NCBI GenBank assembly: GCA_025356695.1
Contig: JANXSE010000297.1
Coordinates: 1 to 18,221, forward strand
Length of the DNA: 18,221 nucleotides
Direction of reading: 5' to 3'
From: Betaproteobacteria bacterium
GTDB lineage: Bacteria > Pseudomonadota > Gammaproteobacteria > Burkholderiales > SG8-41
Shown here: positions 1,187 through 16,775 of the stretch, in pieces
How the letters are laid out: each line of letters begins with the position of its first letter
How positions within the stretch are numbered: the stretch's first letter is position 1
Notes under the pieces: generated by a model
Told to the model about the DNA's origin: nothing
Database searches by the model: none
Seen by the model: the letters and a program-made list of their open reading frames with translations, nothing else
Made by a program: the position numbers and the translations under genes

Positions 1187-1218
1187 CGCCGCTGCCGGCG
1201 CGCATTACGGCAGCGGCG
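1187..1218. terminator. Possible hairpin between convergent genes
   Basis: There is an 11-bp perfect inverted repeat (CGCCGCTGCCG at 1187-1197, CGGCAGCGGCG at 1208-1218) with a 10-nt loop. It lies 28 bp after the ferredoxin-module gene, and its loop contains the stop codon of the HupE-like gene (1205-1207). No T-tract follows on either strand, so intrinsic termination is doubtful. It may instead be a chance product of GC-rich sequence. Confidence 0.3.
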
Positions 1219-2590
1219 CGCGTTCGTCCGGCGCAGTGTCGCGCCGCGCCGCATCCTGCGGCAGGTAACGCCGCAGCCAGCCATTGGCGAGCCACAGCAG
1301 CGCCACCAGCACCAGTGCCGCCATCGCCCAGCGCAGCAGGCCCGCCAGTGCGGCGGCGTCCGGCGCCGGCCACGGAAATTGCGCGAGCGTGTCGGCGCGT
1401 TCGAGCATCCAGTGCCATCCGGTATGCGCGACCAGTACCGAGAGAATGATGGTGCCGATGCGCCCGGCCACCGCGTAACGGAACAACAGCGCCAGCGCCG
1501 GCAGCAGCATGGCGAGCACCGCCAGCTGGCCGAGTTCGACGCCGAGGTTGAACGACAGGAGAGAGGTCAGCAGATGACTGCCGGCAAATTGCAGCGTATC
1601 GCGCAGCGCGAATGAAAAACCGAAACCGTGGATGAGGCCGAAGCCGAAGGCGATCATCCAGCGCCGCGTCAGGCTGCCGCCGATGATGTTTTCGATTGCC
1701 ATGTAGACGATCGACACCGCGATCAGCATCTCGACCAGCGGCGGAAACCACAAGGCATCGGGCGCGTAGCCGAAGGCCGAAGCGATCAGCGTGACCGAAT
1801 GGGCGACGGTGAAGGCGGTGACGATCAGCACCAGCGGGCCGAAGCGCCGGAACGGAATCACCAGGCAGAAAATGAACAGCAGATGATCGATGCCGTCCAT
1901 GATGTGTTTGAAGCCTTCAACGACGAAACGCGCCGCCGCCTGGTGCCAGCGCGGATCGAGACGCAGCAGGCCCTGGTCGCCGTGCAGTTCGTAGGCGCGC
2001 ACACTGCCGTCGGGTGGCAGATAACGCAGTGAGGTGACGACGCTGCGGCCGAGGCGCGCGAACCCGGGGTTGATCGAGAATTCAGCAGTGTCGGCACGGA
2101 TCGGATATTCGAACAACACGTCGAGCAGGCCCTGGCTCCAGATGAAATCCATGGCCGGCGGCAGCGGCGCGCCGGTGACGTGCGCGAGTGCTTCTTCGAA
2201 CGAAGTAAAAGAACGGTCCGACGGCAGCGAGGCGCGCACCGCGACGAGCTGCGGAGCGCCGCTGCGGGTTTTACCCTCGACGATTTCGATGTTGTCGGCG
2301 AACCACAGCAGGGCGGCGGTGCGCAGCGCCGGTTCGGCGCGCGCGAGGTCGAGCAGTCCGACGCCGCGGCGCGGGAACTCGACCTCCTGCATGGCCTGCA
2401 GCGGCACGCGCAGCAAAAGCTGCAGGCGTTCGCCGGCCGGTTTGACGAACAGTTGCACTGTGACGTCGGCGGGAATTTCATGCGCGCGCGCCGCCGGCGA
2501 CGACAGCGTCGCGACGGCGAGCAGCGTCGCCGTCATCGCGTATTGCAGTGCGGCAACCGTGCTTTTGAAGAGCGTAGGAGTTTTTTTCAC
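1205..2590 (-). CDS. HupE/UreJ-family membrane protein (putative Ni/Co or other metal transporter)
   Basis: 461 residues from a GTG start at 2590. This start gives a good signal peptide (KK, then a hydrophobic stretch) with likely cleavage at ARA-HE after residue 36. The mature protein would then begin with His37, as is common for metal-handling proteins. Residues ~37-225 form a soluble, probably periplasmic domain. From ~229 there are about six to seven membrane segments carrying the family's His motifs: GIDHLLF (His236), TVAHSVTL (His264), GLIHGFGFS (His321) and AHTGWHW (His389/His393). This is the long HupE/UreJ_2 architecture. HupE/UreJ proteins are nickel/cobalt permeases linked to hydrogenase or urease, but no such enzyme is visible here, so the metal is inferred only. 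The Shine-Dalgarno is weak (an AGG ~5 nt upstream). It is divergent from the NHL gene. Confidence 0.85.
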   Translation of the reverse strand: MKKTPTLFKSTVAALQYAMTATLLAVATLSSPAARAHEIPADVTVQLFVKPAGERLQLLLRVPLQAMQEVEFPRRGVGLLDLARAEPALRTAALLWFADNIEIVEGKTRSGAPQLVAVRASLPSDRSFTSFEEALAHVTGAPLPPAMDFIWSQGLLDVLFEYPIRADTAEFSINPGFARLGRSVVTSLRYLPPDGSVRAYELHGDQGLLRLDPRWHQAAARFVVEGFKHIMDGIDHLLFIFCLVIPFRRFGPLVLIVTAFTVAHSVTLIASAFGYAPDALWFPPLVEMLIAVSIVYMAIENIIGGSLTRRWMIAFGFGLIHGFGFSFALRDTLQFAGSHLLTSLLSFNLGVELGQLAVLAMLLPALALLFRYAVAGRIGTIILSVLVAHTGWHWMLERADTLAQFPWPAPDAAALAGLLRWAMAALVLVALLWLANGWLRRYLPQDAARRDTAPDERAPLP

Positions 2591-3957: not shown

Positions 3958-3994
3958 TTTTCGCGCGTGTTTTAAACCAGACGAGGGCATGACG

Positions 3995-6127
3995 ATGATG
4001 AGATTGTTTGTGGCCGCCATTGCATTCGCACTGGCGGCGCCGGCCGCCCACGCGCAAAACGCGGCGAAAGCGGCGCCGCGCGCGACGGCGGAAATCAGCG
4101 GTGTCGTCACCAGTGCGCACGGCGCCGAGGCCGGCGTGTGGGTGATTGCGGAAACGACCGAACTGCCGACCAAGTTTGCCAAGATCGTCGTCACCGACGA
4201 GCGCGGACGCTATCTGATTCCGGAGTTGCCGAAGGTGAACTACAGCGTGTGGGTGCGCGGTTACGGGCTGGTCGATTCGCCGAAGGTGAAGGCGGCGGCC
4301 GGCAAAACGCTCAACCTCAAAGCCGTGCTCGCGCCCAACGACGCGGCGGCCGCCGAATATTATCCGGCGATCCACTGGTACTCGATGCTGAAGGTGCCGG
4401 AAAAAAGCGAATTTCCCGGCAAGGGCGTGCCTAACGGCCTGCCTGAACGGCTCGTAAGCCAGGCGCAATGGCTCGACATGGTGAAAACCAACGGCTGTTA
4501 CGCCTGCCACCAGATCGGCAACAAACTCACGCGCACGCTGCCGAAGGGCCTGGGTCCTTTCAATACGTCGGTCGAGGCGTGGACGCGTCGCGTCTTGTCC
4601 GGCCAGGCGATGACACAGATGGTGGATCGTCTGGGCAAGATGGATGCGCAGCGTGCGATCGGCTATTTTGCCGAATGGAGCGACCGCATCGCCGCGGGCG
4701 AATTGCCGAAGACACGGCCCGAGCGTCCGCAGGGTGTCGAGCGCAATGTCGTTGTCACCCTGTGGGACTGGGGCCGCCCCGACGCCTATCTGCACGACGA
4801 GATTTCCACCGACAAACGCAATCCGCTGATCAATGCCAACGGCCTGATCTACGGCTCGCCCGAGGACAGCACCGATTTCGTGCCGGTACTCGATCCGGTG
4901 CGTCACGTGGCGAGCGAAGTGAAGCATCCGGTGCGCGACCCGAACACGCCGACGTCAAAGAATGATCCGATGCTGCCCTCGCAATTCTGGGGCGCCAATC
5001 CACCGTGGGACAGCCAGACCGTCAATCACAATCTGATGTTCGACGAGCGTGGCCGCGTCTGGTTCACGCCGCGCGTGCGGCATCCGGACAATCCGGCGTT
5101 CTGCCGCAAAGGGTCGGAGCATCCGTCGGCGAAACTCTTTCCGATGGACCGCTCGGGGCGCCACGTTTCAATGTATGACCCGCAGACGAAAAAATTCGCG
5201 CTGATCAGCACCTGTTTTCCGACACATCATTTGCAATTTGCCGAAGACGCCGACCAGACGCTGTGGCTGTCGAGCGGCGGTGGCGGCAACGAGGTGATCG
5301 GCTGGGTCAACCGCAAGCTCTATGAAGAAACCGGCGATGAAGAAAAAGCGCAGGGCTGGTCGGCCTTTGTGCTCGATACCAACGGTAACGGCAAACGCGA
5401 CGACTACACCGAGCCCGGCAAGCCTGCGGATCCGGCAAAGGACCAGCGCATCGCCGTGAACATCTACGGCATTGCGGTCAATCCCAACGACGGTTCGGTG
5501 TGGGGCTCGGCGATTAATTATCCCGGTGCGATTGTGCGTTTCGCGCCTGGTGCGAATCCGCCGGCCACGTCGCTCAGCGAAATCTACCGCATCCCGTTCC
5601 CCGGTTATTCGCCGCGCGGCATGGATATCGACCGCGACGGCGTGGTGTGGGCGCCGCTGGCGAGCGGACATCTGGCGAGTTTCGATCGCCGCAAATGCAA
5701 AGGGCCGCTGAACGGGCCGACCGCCACCGGACAGCATTGCACCGAGGGCTGGACGCTGACGCCGTTTCCGGGCCCGCAACTCACCAACGTCACCGATTCG
5801 GGCAGCGCCGAGGCCAGCTACTACACTTGGGTCGATCAATTCGATACCGTCGGCCTTGGCCGCAACGTGCCGTTCGCCACCGGCAATGCCAATGAATCGC
5901 TGATGGCCTTCGTTGACGGGCGTTTCATTCAGTTCCGCGTGCCGTACCCGCGCGGTTTCTACGCCAAGGGCATGGATGGCCGCATCGACGATCCGAAGGC
6001 GGGCTGGAAGGGCCGCGGGTTGTGGACGACCTACGGCTCGCGCGCGCCCATGCATATGGAAGGCGGCAAGGGCACTTTGCCCAAGGTTGTAAAATTCCAG
6101 TTGCGGCCGGATCCGCTGGCGCGCTGA
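3995..6127 (+). CDS. Secreted fusion: carboxypeptidase-regulatory-like domain, single heme c site and Vgb/NHL-like propeller
   Basis: 710 residues from ATG 3995, preferred because GAGGG at 3983-3987 lies 7 nt upstream. ATG 3989 is in frame but too close to that site. A signal peptide (MMRLFVAAIAF... AHA-QN) leads to a beta-sandwich like carboxypeptidase-regulatory/CNA-B domains (about 30-110; 'TDERGRYLIPELP'). One c-type heme motif, CYACH (Cys168, Cys171, His172), follows in a small helical domain. From ~310 to the end there are streptogramin-lyase/NHL-like blades ('FDERGRVWFTP', 'MDIDRDGVVWAPL'), with an insert resembling a calcium loop ('DTNGNGKRDDYTE'). It is probably a periplasmic electron carrier or dehydrogenase partner; the substrate is unknown. 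The selenoprotein ATG comes 19 bp after its stop, so co-transcription is likely. Confidence 0.82.
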   Translation: MMRLFVAAIAFALAAPAAHAQNAAKAAPRATAEISGVVTSAHGAEAGVWVIAETTELPTKFAKIVVTDERGRYLIPELPKVNYSVWVRGYGLVDSPKVKAAAGKTLNLKAVLAPNDAAAAEYYPAIHWYSMLKVPEKSEFPGKGVPNGLPERLVSQAQWLDMVKTNGCYACHQIGNKLTRTLPKGLGPFNTSVEAWTRRVLSGQAMTQMVDRLGKMDAQRAIGYFAEWSDRIAAGELPKTRPERPQGVERNVVVTLWDWGRPDAYLHDEISTDKRNPLINANGLIYGSPEDSTDFVPVLDPVRHVASEVKHPVRDPNTPTSKNDPMLPSQFWGANPPWDSQTVNHNLMFDERGRVWFTPRVRHPDNPAFCRKGSEHPSAKLFPMDRSGRHVSMYDPQTKKFALISTCFPTHHLQFAEDADQTLWLSSGGGGNEVIGWVNRKLYEETGDEEKAQGWSAFVLDTNGNGKRDDYTEPGKPADPAKDQRIAVNIYGIAVNPNDGSVWGSAINYPGAIVRFAPGANPPATSLSEIYRIPFPGYSPRGMDIDRDGVVWAPLASGHLASFDRRKCKGPLNGPTATGQHCTEGWTLTPFPGPQLTNVTDSGSAEASYYTWVDQFDTVGLGRNVPFATGNANESLMAFVDGRFIQFRVPYPRGFYAKGMDGRIDDPKAGWKGRGLWTTYGSRAPMHMEGGKGTLPKVVKFQLRPDPLAR

Positions 6128-6146: not shown

Positions 6147-7877
6147 ATGACACGCATCGAGTTTTACGATCCTTCGGGCGCGCTCGAAGTCACGCAGACA
6201 CACGCGCCGCGTCTTGATACGCTGGCCGGCAAACGCATCGGCTTCGTCAGCAACGAACAATGGCAGGCGTTCCGCACGCTGCCGCTGCTGAAAAAACTCT
6301 TCGAAGCCGATTTTCCCGGCATCGAAATGCTGCCGATCGATGCCTTCCCGCAGGGCAACGGCCTGATCGGCGAGGCAGATACTGCGCAGAAGGTCAAGGC
6401 CAGCGGGGTCGATGCCGTCATCATCGGCAACGCGGCCTGAGGGTCCTGCGCCACAGCGTGCGGCCGTGCAGCCGCACAAATCGAAATACTCGGCATCCCG
6501 ACGGTCACGCTGACGCGGACGGATTTCGTCGGCGTCATGAAAAACGCCATCAGCGGGCTGGGTCTGCCGCCGGAATCGGCGATGATCACCTTTCCGATCG
6601 AACTCTTTCTGCCCGGCAGCGACATCAGCGCGATCGAAACGCGCAAGCGCGAGTTCTATAACGGGCTCACGCAGTGGAAACCGGAACTCGCCCAATCTTC
6701 AGGCGATGAAGCGCCGCTGATTGCGGTCGAGGGCGCGAGCTACGAAGAAGCGCTTGAGCGCGCCAATCATCTGATGATTACCAACCTGTGGGGCGACGGC
6801 CTGCCGCTATGGCCGGCCACACCTGAACGCGTTGCGCGCATCCTGCGCGGCAGCGTATTGCCGCGCACCCATGTCATTGGCAAGTTTCCGCCGCGCGGCG
6901 GCGTGACGACGGTCGAGACCTGCGCAATTGCGCTGGCGATGGCCGGTGGCCGTGCCGAATATCTGCCGGTGCTGATTGCGGCGGTCGAAGCTTTTTTGCA
7001 ACCGGATGTGAATGCGGAGCAATTGCAGGCCGCCTCGGGCGGTGCTTACCCGGTGGTCATCGTCAACGGGCCGATCGCGAAACAGATTCGCTTGAACTCG
7101 GGCTTCGGTTGCCTCGGCCCCGATCCGCAGCGTCCGGCGGGGGCGAGCATCGGCCGTGCGCTGCGTTTGATCCAGCAGAACGTCGGCGGTGCGCTGCCGG
7201 GCATCGGCGCGATGGCCAATTACGGAAGCATGCGTTACACCAACATCGTGTTTGCCGAGGATGAAGACAATCTGCCCGCCGACTGGCCCACACACGGCAC
7301 GGAACGCCATGGTTTTGCGCGCGGCGTGAATTCAATTTCGCTGGCGTTTTCCAACAGCGCGACCAATATCCGCCGCCGCGGCGCGAAAAAAGAAACACCG
7401 GAGGAAGACACCATCCAGGGCATGCACCGCATGGCGGATTTCATGCGCACGCCCAACCTCACGAACCTGCTGGGCTATCAACACGGCACGCCGGGCATCC
7501 TGCTGATTCCTGGCGTCGTCGCCAACACGATGGCGCGCCTCGGCTGGAGCAAACTGAAGATGTGCGAATTTTTCTTTGAGCATTCGCGCATTCCGATGAA
7601 AGACCTGGTGCGCGCCGGCGGCCCGGCCTGGGTCGAGCAGGATCCCGATCCGAAAACGCGCGAGAGTCTCAAACTCGATCCGTGGCCGCTCACCGCGAGG
7701 GCGGAGAACTTTATCATCGTCGTCGCCGGCGGCGGGCACCCGACCAACAGCCACTGGCTGCAGGGCTACAGTCCGCGCGTCATCGGCCGTGAAATCCGTT
7801 TGCCGGAATGCTTCGACGATTTGCTGCGCGATGCCGACCACGATCTCGGTTGCGGCTCGGAAGCGTGCATGATCTGA
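6147..7877 (+). CDS. UGSC-family selenoprotein with in-frame TGA read as selenocysteine
   Basis: 576 residues if the TGA at 6438-6440 is decoded as Sec98. The reading frame is identical on both sides: 97 codons before, and an open frame from 6441 through 7877. Translation across it gives IIGNAA-U-GSC-ATACGRAAA, the Sec-Gly-Ser-Cys motif that names the UGSC (seleno)protein family; Cys101 is the CxxC-like partner and Cys105 is nearby. Residues ~20-175 form an alpha/beta UGSC module. Residues ~190-576 are a large conserved-looking domain I cannot name, ending in Cys569-x4-Cys574 two residues before the C-terminus. There is no signal peptide, so a cytosolic thiol/selenol redox role is likely. The ribosome-binding site is weak (AGAAAG). 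A standard caller would report two ORFs: a 97-residue protein and one starting at ATG 6537. Confidence 0.88.
6438..6440 (+). other. Selenocysteine codon (recoded TGA, residue 98)
   Basis: The TGA is in frame, at the first position of Sec-Gly-Ser-Cys, and followed by GGG TCC TGC. Coding continues in the same frame for 479 codons with protein-like sequence directly after it (ATACGRAAAQIEILGIPTVT). A nonsense mutation landing by chance exactly at the family's Sec position is unlikely. Confidence 0.85.
6458..6477 (+). promoter_or_regulatory. Bacterial SECIS-like stem-loop
   Basis: A perfect 7-bp stem, GTGCGGC (6458-6464) with GCCGCAC (6471-6477), closes a 6-nt apical loop CGTGCA. The loop starts 24 nt after the TGA, inside the roughly 16-37 nt range known for bacterial SECIS elements. 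It has G as its second base followed by T, matching the apical 'GU' contacted by SelB in E. coli fdhF. The element is entirely within the coding region, as expected in bacteria. Confidence 0.75.
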
Positions 7878-7914: not shown

Positions 7915-9438
7915 CTAGCCCGCAGTTTCGCGCGCGGCGCCGCCGCCGGCGATGCGGCCGAATACCACCGGATCGGCTGACGAGTTGCCGCCGATGCGTG
8001 CCGCGCCATGAATGCCGCCGGTGACTTCGCCCGCCGCGTACAGGCGCGGTATCGCGCGGCCCCAGAGGTCGATCACGCGCGCCGTGGCATCGATGCGCAG
8101 CCCGCCCATCGTGTGGTGCACCGATGGCCAGTTCGGAATCGCATACCACGGACCGCCGTCGAACAGCGCCACGTTGGCCGCAACGGGCCGGCTGAAATCC
8201 GGGTCTTTGCGCTCGCGCAGCATTTGCGCGTAGCGTTGCGCGGTTTCCTCGAGCGTTGTTGCAATGCCGGCGGCGGCCGCCAGCTCGCGCAGACTGTCGG
8301 CGCGCAGAATGCGGCGGCGTTCGATTAATTGCGGCAATTCAACACGGTTGCGTTCCGCATCCTGTTGCAGCAGCATAGCCTGATTGAAGATGGTGAAAGT
8401 CGGCCGCTCGCCGGTCGCCATTTCCATGCGCGAGACATGATCGTGCGGTGCCATTTCATTGACAAAGCGGCGGCCGTTTTTTGCTACCAGCATGGCGCCG
8501 CTGCGCCGGATCTGCAGCGCGTAAGAGGTTGCGGTGTCGAGCGCGCCGGTGGCCGGGTCGCCGTAAGGATGCACTTCGATGAATTCAAGCTGCAGCGCAT
8601 CGGCGCCGGTCGCCTGCGCCAGACGGATCATTTCACCGGTGGCGCCGCGCTGATTGGTCGTGTTGTAAGCGGCGGTGAGGATCGGCCGGAATGCAGAGCG
8701 CATGGCGACATCGGCGCCGAACCCGCCTGACGCGATGATGACCGCGCGGCGTGCGCACCATTGTTGCGTTCCCTGCGGCGTGTGCACTTCGATGCCGGTC
8801 ACCGGCCCTTCGGCATTGCGTCGCCACAGGCGCGACACCGCGTGTTCGAAATGAAAGCGCGTGTTGTGCGCGCCGGCGATGCGGCGCAACGCCTCGATGT
8901 AATCGATGCCGCGCCCGCTTGGCGCGTAGTGCATGCGGTAGTTCGATGAGCCCTGGCGGTGAATCACATCGCGCAGTTTCAGACCGCCGCGTTCGATCAT
9001 CCAGTCGAGTGCCGCCGGCGCGCCGTTGACCAGCGTATCGACCAGCGCCGGATCGCTGTAGCCGTCGCCGGCCTCGAGGATGTCGCGTGCGTGCTGCGCC
9101 GCGCTGTCGTCGCCAAGATTGAATTTGCGCCGCAGTTGCAGCGAACTGTCCCACGCCGCGTAGTCGCCGAGGTTGATCGCTGAATTACCACCGGCCGCGG
9201 GCATTTTTTCCAGCACCGCGACGGTACTGCCGCCTTCGGCAGCGGCAGCGGCTGCTGCGCAGCCGGCGAAACCGGAGCCGATAACGATCACATCGACCGT
9301 GATGTCCCAGTTGAGCGGCTGCGCGCGCCCGTCGGCGGCTTGCGCCAGCGCGCGTAACGGTGCGGCGGCAGCGATGCCGGCGCCGGCGGTGAGCAGGAAC
9401 TGCCGGCGTTGGCCGGACGGGCGGCGATCTTCAGTCAT
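7915..9438 (-). CDS. Tat-exported FAD-dependent oxidoreductase, flavocytochrome c/fumarate reductase-like
   Basis: 507 residues from ATG 9438, preceded by GAGAGG at good spacing; the in-frame TTG at 9444 is less likely. Twin arginines in 'QRRQFLLTAG' (Arg11/Arg12) plus a hydrophobic stretch and ALA-QA mark a Tat signal, implying export with bound FAD. The dinucleotide fold GSGFAG is at residues 54-59. Family landmarks are 'AAGGNSAIN', 'HHTMGGL' and the C-terminal 'GEVTGGIHGAARIGGNS' loop. 'DPDFSR' places an Arg where fumarate/urocanate reductases have their catalytic Arg. There are no heme motifs, so electrons must come from or go to a partner. The substrate is unknown: fumarate-like acids, urocanate or ketosteroids are family options. 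It converges on the selenoprotein gene (37 bp) and is divergent from the kelch gene. Confidence 0.85.
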   Translation of the reverse strand: MTEDRRPSGQRRQFLLTAGAGIAAAAPLRALAQAADGRAQPLNWDITVDVIVIGSGFAGCAAAAAAAEGGSTVAVLEKMPAAGGNSAINLGDYAAWDSSLQLRRKFNLGDDSAAQHARDILEAGDGYSDPALVDTLVNGAPAALDWMIERGGLKLRDVIHRQGSSNYRMHYAPSGRGIDYIEALRRIAGAHNTRFHFEHAVSRLWRRNAEGPVTGIEVHTPQGTQQWCARRAVIIASGGFGADVAMRSAFRPILTAAYNTTNQRGATGEMIRLAQATGADALQLEFIEVHPYGDPATGALDTATSYALQIRRSGAMLVAKNGRRFVNEMAPHDHVSRMEMATGERPTFTIFNQAMLLQQDAERNRVELPQLIERRRILRADSLRELAAAAGIATTLEETAQRYAQMLRERKDPDFSRPVAANVALFDGGPWYAIPNWPSVHHTMGGLRIDATARVIDLWGRAIPRLYAAGEVTGGIHGAARIGGNSSADPVVFGRIAGGGAARETAG

Positions 9439-9576
9439 CAGCAACCTCTCGGGATGGATGGCGCGCGCTTCGATTGCGGCGGGCGGCGCGCTGCGTCATT
9501 ATAGCGGCGGTGTGTACTGCCGCCGTCACGCAAGCGGTTGCAGCGCGCCGGGTCCGGTCTGCTATCGAGGAGAGTC
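9439..9576. promoter_or_regulatory. Divergent intergenic region between flavoprotein and kelch genes
   Basis: These 138 bp must hold promoters for both genes. The only AT-rich spot is CATTATAG at 9497-9504, a possible -10 for the kelch gene. No convincing -35 was found at normal spacing (TTGCGG at 9474-9479 is 19 bp away). No clear operator repeats were seen. Confidence 0.35.
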
Positions 9577-10663: not shown

Positions 10664-11626
10664 ATGATGAAACTCGCATTGCCTGCAACATTGTCTGCAA
10701 CGCTATTCGCGGTCTGTTGTCATGCACAGACGTATCCGTCGAAATCCGTGCGCATCGTCGTGCCGTTTACGCCGGGCGGGGCGGTCGATATTGTCGGTCG
10801 TACGCTGGGCGAAAAACTGTCGGCAAGCCTGGGCCAGCCGTTTGTTGTCGATAACCGGCCGGGTGCCGGCGGCATTGTCGGCGCCGAAATCGTCGCGCGT
10901 TCGGCGCCCGACGGCTACACGCTGCTGGCGGTGTCGTCGGCGCATGCCACCAACCCGACGCTGTTCGCAAAAATCTCCTACAACACCGAGCGCGATTTCG
11001 CGCCGGTGAGCCTCGTTGCCAGCAGTTCGTACATGCTGGTGGCGCATCCGAGTGTGCCGGTGCGCACCGTGCGCGAACTCATCGCTTTTGCCAAGGCGCG
11101 GCCGGGCCAGATGAATTACGCCGGTGGCGCGGTCGCCAGTCTGCCGCATCTGTCGGGTGAGCTCTTCAACCTGATGGCCGGCGTGAAATTGATTTACGTG
11201 CCGTACAAAGGCTCGGCACAGGTGACCACCGCGGTGCTCGGCGGCGAGGTGCCGTTGATGTTCAGCAACATGCTGGCGATCATGCCCTTTGTGCATGCGG
11301 GGCGCTTCCGCGCACTGGGCGTCACCGGCATGAACCGCGTGCCCGCCGCGCCGGAGGTGCCGACTATCCACGAATCGGGGCTGCCTGGATACGAGGTTGC
11401 CGGCTGGTACGGGCTGCTCGCGCCGGCCGGCACGCCGCGCGAAATCGTTCTGCGCCTGAATGCGCAGATCGTGGCGGCCATGCGCGCGCCCGATATCGTC
11501 AAACGCTATTCGAGCGAAGGCGCCGACCCGGTCGGTTCGACGCCCGAGGCGTTTGCCGAAGTCATCACGCGCGATATCGCCAAATGGGCGAAAGTGATAA
11601 AAGCGTCGGGCGCGCGCGTGGAGTAA
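10664..11626 (+). CDS. Bug-family tripartite tricarboxylate transporter substrate-binding protein
   Basis: 320 residues. The signal peptide ends near CHA-QT (~22). Family signatures are clear: 'YPSKSVRIVVPFTPGGAVDIVGR' at the mature N-terminus, 'VVDNRPGAGGIVGAEIVA' about 35 residues on, 'APDGYTLL', 'YVPYKGSAQ' and 'WYGLLAPAGTP'. Bug (TctC-type) proteins capture carboxylates or related small organics in the periplasm; most are orphans without an adjacent TctA/TctB permease, as here. The position between kelch and amidohydrolase genes suggests the ligand is linked to that pathway. There is no strong Shine-Dalgarno, and ATG 10667 is an equally possible start. Confidence 0.93.
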   Translation: MMKLALPATLSATLFAVCCHAQTYPSKSVRIVVPFTPGGAVDIVGRTLGEKLSASLGQPFVVDNRPGAGGIVGAEIVARSAPDGYTLLAVSSAHATNPTLFAKISYNTERDFAPVSLVASSSYMLVAHPSVPVRTVRELIAFAKARPGQMNYAGGAVASLPHLSGELFNLMAGVKLIYVPYKGSAQVTTAVLGGEVPLMFSNMLAIMPFVHAGRFRALGVTGMNRVPAAPEVPTIHESGLPGYEVAGWYGLLAPAGTPREIVLRLNAQIVAAMRAPDIVKRYSSEGADPVGSTPEAFAEVITRDIAKWAKVIKASGARVE

Positions 11627-11691
11627 GGTATTGCCGCGCCGGCCGCGGTCAGAATAAACAGGACTTCAAAACCGCAAACAGGGGAGACCAC

Positions 11692-12672
11692 ATGATCACG
11701 CGACGCAAATTTCTCGAATGGTCCACCGCCGCCGGCGCGGCCTTGCTGGCGCGCCAGGGCTGGGCCGTCGAAGCGCCGACGCTGCTGCCGGCGCAACCGC
11801 GCGTGAAGCCGGGTTTCGAGGTGCCGGCCGGCGCCTGCGACACGCATGTGCATATCGTCGGTGCCGCCGACCGTTATCCGTTCGTCGCCAAACGCGCCTA
11901 CACGCCGCCCGAGGCCTCGGTCGATCAATTGCGCGCTTTGCACCGCAGTCTGGGCATTGAGCGTGTGGTCGTTGTGCAGCCGAGTTTCTACGGCACCGAC
12001 AATACATGCACGATGGATGCGGTGAAGAGCATGGGCCGCACGGCGCGGGCCATCGTCGTCATCGACGAAAAAACGCCGGAGGCCGAACTCGAGTCGATGC
12101 GGCGCGCCGGCGCCTGCGGCGTGCGCCTGAACCTTGCCACCGCGGGCGTCAACGATCCGGTCGCCTCCGCGCGTTTTCTGCGCAGCGCGGTCGAGCGCAT
12201 CCGCCCGCATGGCTGGCATGTGCAGCTCAATACCGAACCGAAAATCATTGCCGCGCTGAAAAAAGAATTCGACAGCCTGCCGGTGATGATCGTGTTCGAT
12301 CACTTCGGCGGGGCCGATGCGGCACGCGGCGTCAGGGATCCGGGCTTCGATGCGCTGCTCGATCTGGTCAAGGCGGGCAAGGCCTATGTGAAGATTTCGG
12401 CGACGAATCTCTTCTTCACCGATCCGCCGCATTTTGCCGGCTACGCCGAGATGGCGAAGACGCTGATCGCCGCCAACCCCGATCGTATCCTGTGGGGCTC
12501 GAACTGGCCGCATCCGGCGGCGCGTCCGCCCGGCCATGATTTTTCGCAACTGCTGCCGTGGCGCGACATCGACGACGCGGTGGTGATGAACCTGCTGCCG
12601 CTGTGGGAGCCGAACGCCGAAGTGCGCCGGAAAATCCTCGTCGATAATCCCGCGCGTTTGTTCGGGTTCTGA
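11692..12672 (+). CDS. Tat-exported amidohydrolase_2 family hydrolase (2-pyrone-4,6-dicarboxylate lactonase-like)
   Basis: 326 residues from ATG 11692, preceded by GGGGAG. The N-terminus 'ITRRKFLEW' (Arg4/Arg5) followed by a hydrophobic segment is a Tat signal, unusual for this mostly cytosolic family. The TIM-barrel metal/substrate motif HxH is CDTHVH (His52, His54). Later landmarks are 'VVVVQPSFYGTDN', 'VFDHFGG' and the strand-8 motif WGSNWPHP (Trp268-His274). In LigI and relatives strand 8 usually carries Asp (GTDWP); here it is Asn271. The reaction is likely hydrolysis of a lactone or similar ester, possibly of an aromatic breakdown product; this is inference from the family. The cytochrome gene starts 2 bp after the stop, so the two are probably translated together. 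Confidence 0.85.
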   Translation: MITRRKFLEWSTAAGAALLARQGWAVEAPTLLPAQPRVKPGFEVPAGACDTHVHIVGAADRYPFVAKRAYTPPEASVDQLRALHRSLGIERVVVVQPSFYGTDNTCTMDAVKSMGRTARAIVVIDEKTPEAELESMRRAGACGVRLNLATAGVNDPVASARFLRSAVERIRPHGWHVQLNTEPKIIAALKKEFDSLPVMIVFDHFGGADAARGVRDPGFDALLDLVKAGKAYVKISATNLFFTDPPHFAGYAEMAKTLIAANPDRILWGSNWPHPAARPPGHDFSQLLPWRDIDDAVVMNLLPLWEPNAEVRRKILVDNPARLFGF

Positions 12673-15005: not shown

Positions 15006-16775
15006 CTAGTTCAGCGCAAATACGAACAGATAGCTTGAGTTCTCGAGTTTGTCGAACTTCACCGGATGCAGGTGGCGGCCGCTCGACTGCACGGCGAGAT
15101 ATTGTTTGCCGCCGATCGAGTAGGTGACCGGCGCGCCCTTCAGAGGCGTGCCGACGTTGAAACGCCACAGTTCTTCCAGCGTCTCGTCCTGGTAGGCGAC
15201 GATCCAGCCGTCCTGCAGCGCCGAGAAGACGACGCCGCCGGCCGTGGCAATGGTGCCCGAACGCACCTCGATCTCGGTCACCGCCTTGGCGATCACCTTG
15301 TGCTTGACGGTGTCGAACGCGGTCACCGAGCCGTAATACAGATCGCTGGTGTAGGTGCGTTTATCGCTGGCCTTCTCGTCGATGTCGCCGCCGCCCTTGA
15401 TGTAGCGTACTTCCGCGCCGTTCTGCGTGAAGCAGCCCTCGGTGCCGGCGCCGTAGGCGATGTTCTTGACGGGATTGAAGGCGGTGGGTTGATGCGCGAT
15501 GCCGCCGTGCCAGGTCGGGCAGGTTTTTTTCATCGGGTCGCCGCGCAGCGAACGCGCCACGGGGTTGTAAATCTGCACGTCAAGCTTCGGATCGTACTCG
15601 ACGGGCATGCCGGTCTTCGGATTGATGCCCTTGGTCCAGTTCACGTCGTTGACGTACTGGTCGGCCTTGATGAATTTTCCATTGGTGCGGTCGAGCGTGT
15701 AGAAAAAGCCGTTGCGCGCAAAGTGCGTGACGACCTTGCGCGTTTTGCCGTCGATCACCGAGTCATGCAGCATGTGAATACCAACTTCGTCGTAGTCCCA
15801 CGAATCGTTCGGCGTGTACTGGAAGTGCCATACGAGTTTGCCGGTGTCGATGTTGATGGCGACCGCCGAGTTGGTGTACAGGTTGTCGCCGGGTCGCGCC
15901 TGCGGATCGTACTGTGGAATCGGATTGCCGGTGCCCCAGATCGTCAGCCGCGTGACCGGGTCATACGAACCCGTTTGCCACAAACCGCCGCCGCCGGTTT
16001 TCCAGGCGTCGTTTTTGTCTTTCCACGTTTCACTGCCGGGCTCGCCGGGCGCCGGCACTGCATACCAGCGCCACAGTTCGTTGCCGGTGCGCGCATCGAG
16101 TGCAGCGATCCAGCCGCGCGTCTTACCGTCGCCGGCGCCGTTGGCGATGATGACCTTGCCGTCGGCAGTGATCGGCGCGGCGTAAAAGCGCTCTTTCTTG
16201 CCGAATTCGTTAGCCACCAGAATTTTCTTGTCCCAGACGATTTCGCCGTTGTCGCGGTTGATGCCGATGACGCGGCCGTCGGGGAGGTTGGCAATGACCA
16301 GGTCTTCCCACAGCGCGATGCCGCGTGAGCGCGGCACGTTGCCCTTGTGTGCCACACCCGGATCGCAGACCCAGACGAAGTCGCCCTTGTTTGGATTACG
16401 CGCATCGATTTTGTAGATCGTGCCCCAGCCGTCGGTGGTGTAGAGGAAGCCGTTATCGATCAGCGGATTGACCTCGCTTTCGGGGCCGTTGGGGCCGACA
16501 TCGGCCATGCCGCCCAGCGCCATCGCCCACACCATGCGCAGGTTCTTCACGTTATCGCGGTTGATCTGTGTCAGCTTGGAATAACGCATCGAGCCGTAAT
16601 CGCCGTTCATCATCAGCCAGTTCTGCGGTTCGTTCTGCGCGTTGAGCAGGCGGTCGCGGTTGACGGTGATGCTGTATTGCGAGGTCGGCGCGGCGCTGGC
16701 CGCCGTGGCGGCGGCGGCATGGATGCCGCAGAGTGCAAGGGCAATTGCGGCGCAATTGCGTACGATTTGTCGCAT
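15006..16775 (-). CDS. Periplasmic PQQ-dependent alcohol dehydrogenase, lanthanide-type Asp-Tyr-Asp motif
   Basis: 589 residues from ATG 16775, with AGGGAGGA (16782-16789) at ideal spacing. A signal peptide ends near ASA-AP (~29). It is an eight-bladed PQQ propeller: 'NWLMMNGDYGSMRYSKLTQINRDN' opens it, as in methanol/ethanol dehydrogenases, and W-docking repeats follow. Active-site landmarks are Asn284 (GTGNP), catalytic Asp327 in WDYDEV, and Arg354 (RNGFFYTLDR). Asp329, two residues after the catalytic Asp, is the extra ligand of XoxF-type lanthanide enzymes. Two departures are noted: the usual Glu of the GAE motif is Asp216 (NGAGDG), and the vicinal Cys-Cys disulfide is replaced by Gly145-Asn146 near 'NVPRSRG'. 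There is no C-terminal heme domain, so an external cytochrome is needed. No xoxG/xoxJ or pqq genes are nearby. Confidence 0.9.
   Translation of the reverse strand: MRQIVRNCAAIALALCGIHAAAATAASAAPTSQYSITVNRDRLLNAQNEPQNWLMMNGDYGSMRYSKLTQINRDNVKNLRMVWAMALGGMADVGPNGPESEVNPLIDNGFLYTTDGWGTIYKIDARNPNKGDFVWVCDPGVAHKGNVPRSRGIALWEDLVIANLPDGRVIGINRDNGEIVWDKKILVANEFGKKERFYAAPITADGKVIIANGAGDGKTRGWIAALDARTGNELWRWYAVPAPGEPGSETWKDKNDAWKTGGGGLWQTGSYDPVTRLTIWGTGNPIPQYDPQARPGDNLYTNSAVAINIDTGKLVWHFQYTPNDSWDYDEVGIHMLHDSVIDGKTRKVVTHFARNGFFYTLDRTNGKFIKADQYVNDVNWTKGINPKTGMPVEYDPKLDVQIYNPVARSLRGDPMKKTCPTWHGGIAHQPTAFNPVKNIAYGAGTEGCFTQNGAEVRYIKGGGDIDEKASDKRTYTSDLYYGSVTAFDTVKHKVIAKAVTEIEVRSGTIATAGGVVFSALQDGWIVAYQDETLEELWRFNVGTPLKGAPVTYSIGGKQYLAVQSSGRHLHPVKFDKLENSSYLFVFALN

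Follow-up and report, generated by a model that had tools for sequence, protein, structure and literature searches.

UGSC proteins have been described since 2008 as a prominent selenoprotein family of metagenomes with unknown function, and the part of the 2008 survey covered here also proposes a thioredoxin-like fold for them and suspects redox Cys residues in the domains to which they are fused (PMC2398784). A survey of 2016 tabulated 33 UGSC selenoproteins from 26 organisms (PMC5029168, Table 3), while the largest whole bacterial selenoproteomes reported comprise 57 and 63 members (PMC13188914), both as given in the accessible sections of these papers. UGSC and proline reductase are given as separate families in the covered sections of five reports (PMC2398784, PMC13188914, PMC9312934, PMC5029168, PMC9402790). 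For the proline reductase protein PrdB, the mechanism proposed in the available portion of PMC3091704 starts from a pyruvoyl-bound substrate, which is attacked by selenocysteine (Sec) to form a selenoether that is subsequently resolved by Cys. The gene described below belongs to this known UGSC family, and what is surprising about it is the relatives of the family and its numbers.

The window, meaning the whole stretch of 18,221 nucleotides that was analysed, carries on its forward strand two open reading frames in a common frame, at 6147-6440 (97 amino acids) and 6537-7877 (446 amino acids). A sequence-only reading had claimed that nothing but a TGA separates them, and this is borne out, the break being codon 98 (6438-6440) with coding continuing to the terminal TGA at 7875-7877. 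When the internal TGA is read as Sec, a single gene at 6147..7877 results, predicted to encode a UGSC/Unknown_1 fusion selenoprotein of 576 residues with one internal TGA and the motif U98-G-S-C101, the same Sec-Gly-Ser-Cys at residues 98-101 that had been read from the readthrough translation. Scanning genome contigs turned up 64 relatives with 52-95% identity, and codon 98 is TGA in all 64, never TAA or TAG. No further in-frame stop occurs in 60 of the 63 relatives with coordinates; at two loci (L047 and L060) the frame ends a few codons early with codon 98 still TGA, the sole stop of the fragment L061 is the codon-98 TGA, and the TGA is also present in a further fragment, L064. The motif reads UGSC at 45 of the 64 loci, with UGAC, UGTC and UGRC among the remainder. 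Judged from the sequences compared, conservation of this TGA exceeds chance.

In the protein database 2365 relatives pass E 0.001 among 7997 candidates scored, and 120 of these are listed. Among those listed, 87 carry Cys at position 98 (as CGSC, CGAC or CGGC), supplying the Cys homologs that had been anticipated at this residue and indicating that Sec is not essential. The other 33 begin past the TGA and lack position 98; 22 of them start at the residue matching Met131, window position 6537, in agreement with the expectation that automatic annotation would introduce a false stop and a wrong start there. With the N-terminal part as query, 101 of the 120 listed matches are proteins of 97 residues, the length of the window frame up to the TGA. 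Together, the 97-residue matches and the post-TGA starts indicate that annotation cuts such genes in two.

Downstream of the TGA, a bacterial SECIS hairpin, GUGCGGC-CGUGCA-GCCGCAC, is predicted on the forward strand at 6458..6477, with a 5-bp core at 6460-6475, on the basis of synonymous constraint and pairing. It lies 18-37 bases past the TGA (core 20-35), with the loop CGUGCA containing a G. Synonymous sites were analysed in 26 orthologs thinned from 61, and codons 102-109 (bases 10-33 past the TGA) show the top excess of synonymous-codon identity among 522 eight-codon windows. Within them Arg107 is written CGT in 25 of the 26 thinned sequences, whereas at other positions of these genes CGT accounts for 94 of 890 Arg codons. 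All five pairs of the core GCGGC-CGUGCA-GCCGC are kept in 56 of 56 distinct sequences (from 64), and the two outer pairs of the window hairpin are unpaired in 36 of these 56. The stability of the window hairpin against shuffled sequence, calculated with RNAfold, is not significant (z -0.27), and folding energy was dropped as proof of a SECIS. Covariation among the 56 distinct sequences gives the hairpin no support, a slid pairing scoring higher, because the core is nearly invariant. Rfam models at gathering scores found nothing in the window. Reading of the TGA as Sec through a SECIS hairpin located just downstream is, as a prediction, well supported.

The Sec machinery of the window organism was deduced from the genomes of relatives with up to 95% protein identity, and the sel genes that the sequence-only reading had proposed to look for are present there. 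Over the model cut-off, selB is found in 15 of 17 genomes, the exceptions being G005 and G009, the latter holding selB as pieces only, on two contigs; tRNA-Sec is found in 15 of 17, missing in G005 and G013, and selA in four of five, G005 being without it. The draft of G005 measures 3.0 Mb against 4.6-5.0 Mb for G001-G004, and as it is smaller its lack of sel genes may reflect incompleteness. Among 14 control genomes the tRNA-Sec cut-off was passed by five and the selB cut-off by two, which makes selB the more telling of the two tests. Within G001, which belongs to the 94% relative L001, selA, selB and tRNA-Sec stand together on one contig, C149. Eleven of the loci studied (L001, L007, L008, L010, L012, L014, L015, L023, L051, L056 and L060) come from drafts titled Bordetella parapertussis and L004 from one titled Chitinophaga pinensis; these titles look wrong, and the loci under them resemble records of ‘uncultured beta proteobacterium’. 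That the window gene encodes a Sec protein is, from the comparisons above, almost certain.

The UGSC domain comprises residues 1-165 (6147..6641, forward strand), with residues 7-142 covered by the Pfam family UGSC (PF24696); it was delimited with the help of profile comparison and of family-model matches among its paralogs. The search against UGSC family models that had been recommended was successful for PF24696, which the window protein passes at 66.2 bits (cut-off 25). The score against the NCBI equivalog NF041046 (UGSC_fam) is 42.5 bits, below its cut-off of 125 bits, and all ten paralogous UGSC domains scanned, as domains only, likewise fall below this cut-off, the best reaching 112.9.

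Comparison of a profile of 57 UGSC domains with a profile of ten PrdB-like sequences and one GrdB-like sequence gave a probability of 95.6 and a score of 49, against 3.3 for a reversed profile and at most 11.4 for 60 column shuffles. Masking the Sec motif in the two profiles lowers the score to 32 and the probability to 70, and across the N-terminal half of the domain the alignment is poor. The PrdB model TIGR04483 matches three of ten UGSC paralogs around the Sec (1.4e-4 to 5.1e-4), with a best score of 21.4 that lies below its 300-bit cut-off. GrdB-type models match four of the ten at 0.011 to 0.16, and since unrelated models score as well in the same scan (NAD kinase 0.0066, QueC 0.0078), only the PrdB matches stand out; the Pfam GRDB model (PF07355) has no match at E 1 in any of the ten. 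The window protein itself has no match to PrdB or GrdB models in the Pfam and NCBI model scans, so the link holds at the level of the family. The surroundings of the Sec are alike, reading VDAVVLTPV-U-P-N-C-T in the PrdB-like protein L076, close to VDAVIIGNAA-U-G-S-C-A in the window. The loci L076-L084, from the genomes of the relatives, are PrdB-like selenoproteins with U-P-x-C-T, most of them with an added C-terminal stretch of more than 150 residues. From these similarities it is very probable that the UGSC domain and the Sec domain of D-proline reductase (PrdB), glycine/betaine/sarcosine reductase (GrdB) and their kin descend from a common ancestor. The pyruvoyl partner of those enzymes, PrdA/GrdE (PF09338), is above its cut-off in just one of 14 relatives’ genomes (G013). 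Neither this kinship nor the paralog expansion to 29 domains described below was found in the covered portion of the UGSC literature, with Haft and Tolstoy 2025 lying outside it.

The remainder of the protein, about residues 186-576 (6702..7874, forward strand), forms the Unknown_1 domain, in which no Pfam, NCBIfam or PDB family is recognised; searches with 39 diverse members gave only scattered weak matches, in single or few members. The positions that are invariant across these 39 domains carry D, A, M, G, P, R, N, E or W, and include D217, R337, N345, E371 and W380 in window numbering. Cys is nowhere invariant or nearly so; the close long-form group taken by itself keeps Cys259, Cys322 and Cys574. 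Profile comparison of Unknown_1 with PrdB found no relation, and the candidate identity as a relative of PrdA/GrdE was rejected for lack of similarity to the one GrdE-like sequence compared. Two weak Pfam matches of the long-form proteins were set aside: Asparaginase_C, seen in 30 of 61 members (best 0.0019), and Gly_reductase, seen in 9 of 61 (best 0.076).

Both domains recur many times within some genomes. A profile of the long form at 1e-10 gives 1 to 36 matches per genome across 17 genomes, where one gene may match more than once, and G001, G002, G003, G008 and G009 give 24-36 each. The genome studied most closely, G004, is a draft metagenome genome of a 95% relative (L004), in which 28 regions were read in detail. 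It holds 29 UGSC domains with exactly one TGA in each, the motifs being UGSC (15), UGAC (7), UGGC (3), UGNC (2), UGSS (1) and UGTS (1), together with 32 Unknown_1 domains. The UGSS and UGTS paralogs, at L166:7639-8055 and L167:311-697, are without the second Cys. For 28 of the 29 UGSC domains an Unknown_1 domain lies within 1.2 kb, in 13 cases in the same frame and in 15 as a neighbouring gene, in either order. One UGSC domain (L182, beside a contig end) and four Unknown_1 domains (three at contig ends) are unpaired; the Unknown_1 gene at L179:7801-8832 stands alone, the 7.8 kb to each side of it containing no UGSC domain. Homologs with the two parts as separate genes devoid of Cys and Sec, the pattern named beforehand as speaking against a selenoprotein, were not met, as the split paralogs keep the Sec TGA in their UGSC gene. 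The nearest pair of UGSC domains in G004 is 80% identical, and for 23 of the 29 the nearest other is 43-65% identical, too low for strain duplicates. Contamination of the G004 draft is not excluded, and the five other genomes named above give comparable numbers of 24-36 matches. At E 1e-100 the long form is present in one of 114 genomes of the class of G004 (G004 itself, with the TGA) and in three of 385 genomes of the class of G016 (G016 included, all with the TGA). A heme-copper oxidase of the COX1 family is encoded in 11 of 11 relatives’ genomes tested.

The gene immediately upstream of the UGSC gene, at 3992..6127 on the same strand, weakly matches CarboxypepD_reg and encodes a CxxCH haem motif. 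Its stop is 19 bases 5' of the UGSC start codon, and it is probably on the same transcript; its counterpart occupies the same place in L003, L004 and L005 and was undetected at the other ortholog loci. A flavocytochrome c-type FAD oxidoreductase (7915-9444, reverse strand) is convergent with the UGSC gene; a relative of it was seen near the ortholog in L005 and was undetected in L003 and L004. Further away are a TctC solute receptor at 10664..11626 on the forward strand (PF03401, 2.9e-72; 2.8 kb downstream of the UGSC gene), a HupE/UreJ_2 membrane protein (1205-2590, reverse strand), an Amidohydro_2 enzyme (11584-12672, forward strand) resembling 4-sulfomuconolactone hydrolase at a score below the cut-off of that model, and a PQQ-type dehydrogenase (15006-16775, reverse strand). 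The HupE/UreJ_2, Amidohydro_2 and PQQ genes lend the window a degradation-like setting. No conserved operon was found around the orthologs, the gene order of the window being limited to close relatives, and a search of PLSDB plasmids in near mode gave no match.

Solute receptors are the neighbours that recur. In G004, the density of TctC-like genes less than 4 kb from UGSC/Unknown_1 genes is 29.3 per 100 kb (61 genes, in 26 of 28 regions); it is 15.1 at greater distance and 7.4 across 20 control regions picked by contig number. One representative of this family was checked (PF03401, 5.6e-70). A second neighbour family has 11 genes near, one further out and five in the control regions. Pfam scanning, restricted to neighbours, identified MmgE/PrpD in 11 of 94, these being 93 of the 98 near non-TctC reading frames of at least 200 amino acids (five short ones omitted) plus the one TctC representative. 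Around 63 direct orthologs the excess is modest, with 19.8 TctC genes per 100 kb within 2.5 kb and 12.2-13.6 beyond. TctC is also the sole neighbour family common to many ortholog loci, 32 of 63 having it inside 2.5 kb and the runner-up family reaching nine, in bacteria where, as the control regions of G004 illustrate, TctC genes are common generally.

The whole is, on balance, best read as a Sec-dependent reductase of the UGSC family, which may break C-N bonds, or similar ones, in organic acids that the cell imports. That reductive bond cleavage in particular is the chemistry of UGSC proteins is suggested by analogy, and is put forward tentatively, with the chances close to even. The steps would be modelled on the mechanism proposed for PrdB. 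The selenolate of Sec98 would attack a carbon-heteroatom bond, probably C-N, in a small organic acid that the C-terminal Unknown_1 domain would hold; Cys101 would then resolve the selenoether to a Se-S bridge, which a cellular thiol system would reset. The paralogs might be variants for different imported substrates, with TctC receptors as suppliers. Against this mechanism stand the lack of a pyruvoyl partner and the two G004 paralogs without the resolving Cys.

An unlikely alternative, although the best placed of those considered, is a Sec thiol-disulfide oxidoreductase of thioredoxin-like fold, as the 2008 proposal would imply, with UxxC swapping disulfides on a protein or small-molecule partner recruited by Unknown_1. 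The UxxC motif, along with the three Unknown_1 Cys residues conserved in the close long-form group, agrees with such a function. However, the profile and family-model matches point to PrdB, with a single Redoxin match at 0.11; the residues invariant across the 39 Unknown_1 domains include D, R, N, E and W rather than Cys, and tens of partnered paralogs near solute receptors better fit enzymes acting on small substrates. More improbable still is a Sec/Cys enzyme working by acid-base chemistry, a racemase, isomerase or decarboxylase akin to aspartate/glutamate racemases, in which U98 and C101 would serve as proton donors and not for reduction. A shortened relative, P0170, is named Asp/Glu/hydantoin racemase by one source, MmgE/PrpD and other organic-acid enzymes are among the neighbours, and one racemase group resembles the UGSC profile weakly (score 15.7), yet this is far under the PrdB score of 49, and the CNT-motif racemase group scores 1.6; 15 of 16 fetched loci were used in the racemase comparison. 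A UxxC pair is moreover a redox arrangement, which counts against proton transfer. Two separate genes or a pseudogene, with the TGA as a real stop and the downstream frame starting at 6537, can be rejected as highly improbable, since the splitting by gene callers and the listed matches that start past the TGA (33 of 120) or end at 97 residues (101 of 120) are outweighed by a TGA, never TAA or TAG, at the exact codon of all 64 loci, by full-length Cys homologs and by codon constraint right past the break.

With a Sec-dependent reductase retained as the preferred reading, the tie to proline and glycine reductases gives UGSC a concrete chemical hypothesis. A wider proposal, which we regard as a possibility somewhat short of even, is that UGSC and Unknown_1 together make up a large class of Sec-dependent reductases built of two parts; this class would be a branch of the PrdB/GrdB superfamily that has Unknown_1 in place of the pyruvoyl subunit, with about 30 paralogs per genome in some free-living proteobacteria capable of respiring O2, each for a different imported carboxylate. 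The 29 UGSC domains of the single draft G004 compare with the 33 in 26 organisms tabulated in the available section of PMC5029168, and, if true, one family would be about half the size of the largest bacterial selenoproteomes, as the accessible part of PMC13188914 reports them. Since gene callers tend to split such genes, the UGSC/Unknown_1 class is easily overlooked. Cytochrome oxidase in the hosts is contrary to the view, expressed in the accessible part of the same paper, that aerobes rarely keep selenoproteins (PMC13188914).

Among known systems, the UGSC/Unknown_1 fusion of the 2008 survey, in the part covered, shares with the window protein a UGSC domain fused to a conserved uncharacterised domain and Sec in UxxC, the Unknown_1 of that survey being taken as the same domain by assumption; here, unlike in that fusion, the partner is also a separate neighbouring gene and copies run to tens per genome (PMC2398784). 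The families PF24696 and NF041046 share with the window protein the UGSC motif and Cys counterparts, and while it passes the former it falls below the cut-off of the latter and has an additional domain of roughly 390 residues. PrdB and GrdB/GrdH/GrdF (PF07355, TIGR04483, TIGR01917) appear to have a related Sec domain, their UxxC standing at the equivalent position. In contrast to these enzymes, the UGSC family scores below their family cut-offs and is without the PrdA/GrdE pyruvoyl partner, having instead Unknown_1 beside it or fused to it, in hosts that encode heme-copper oxidases.
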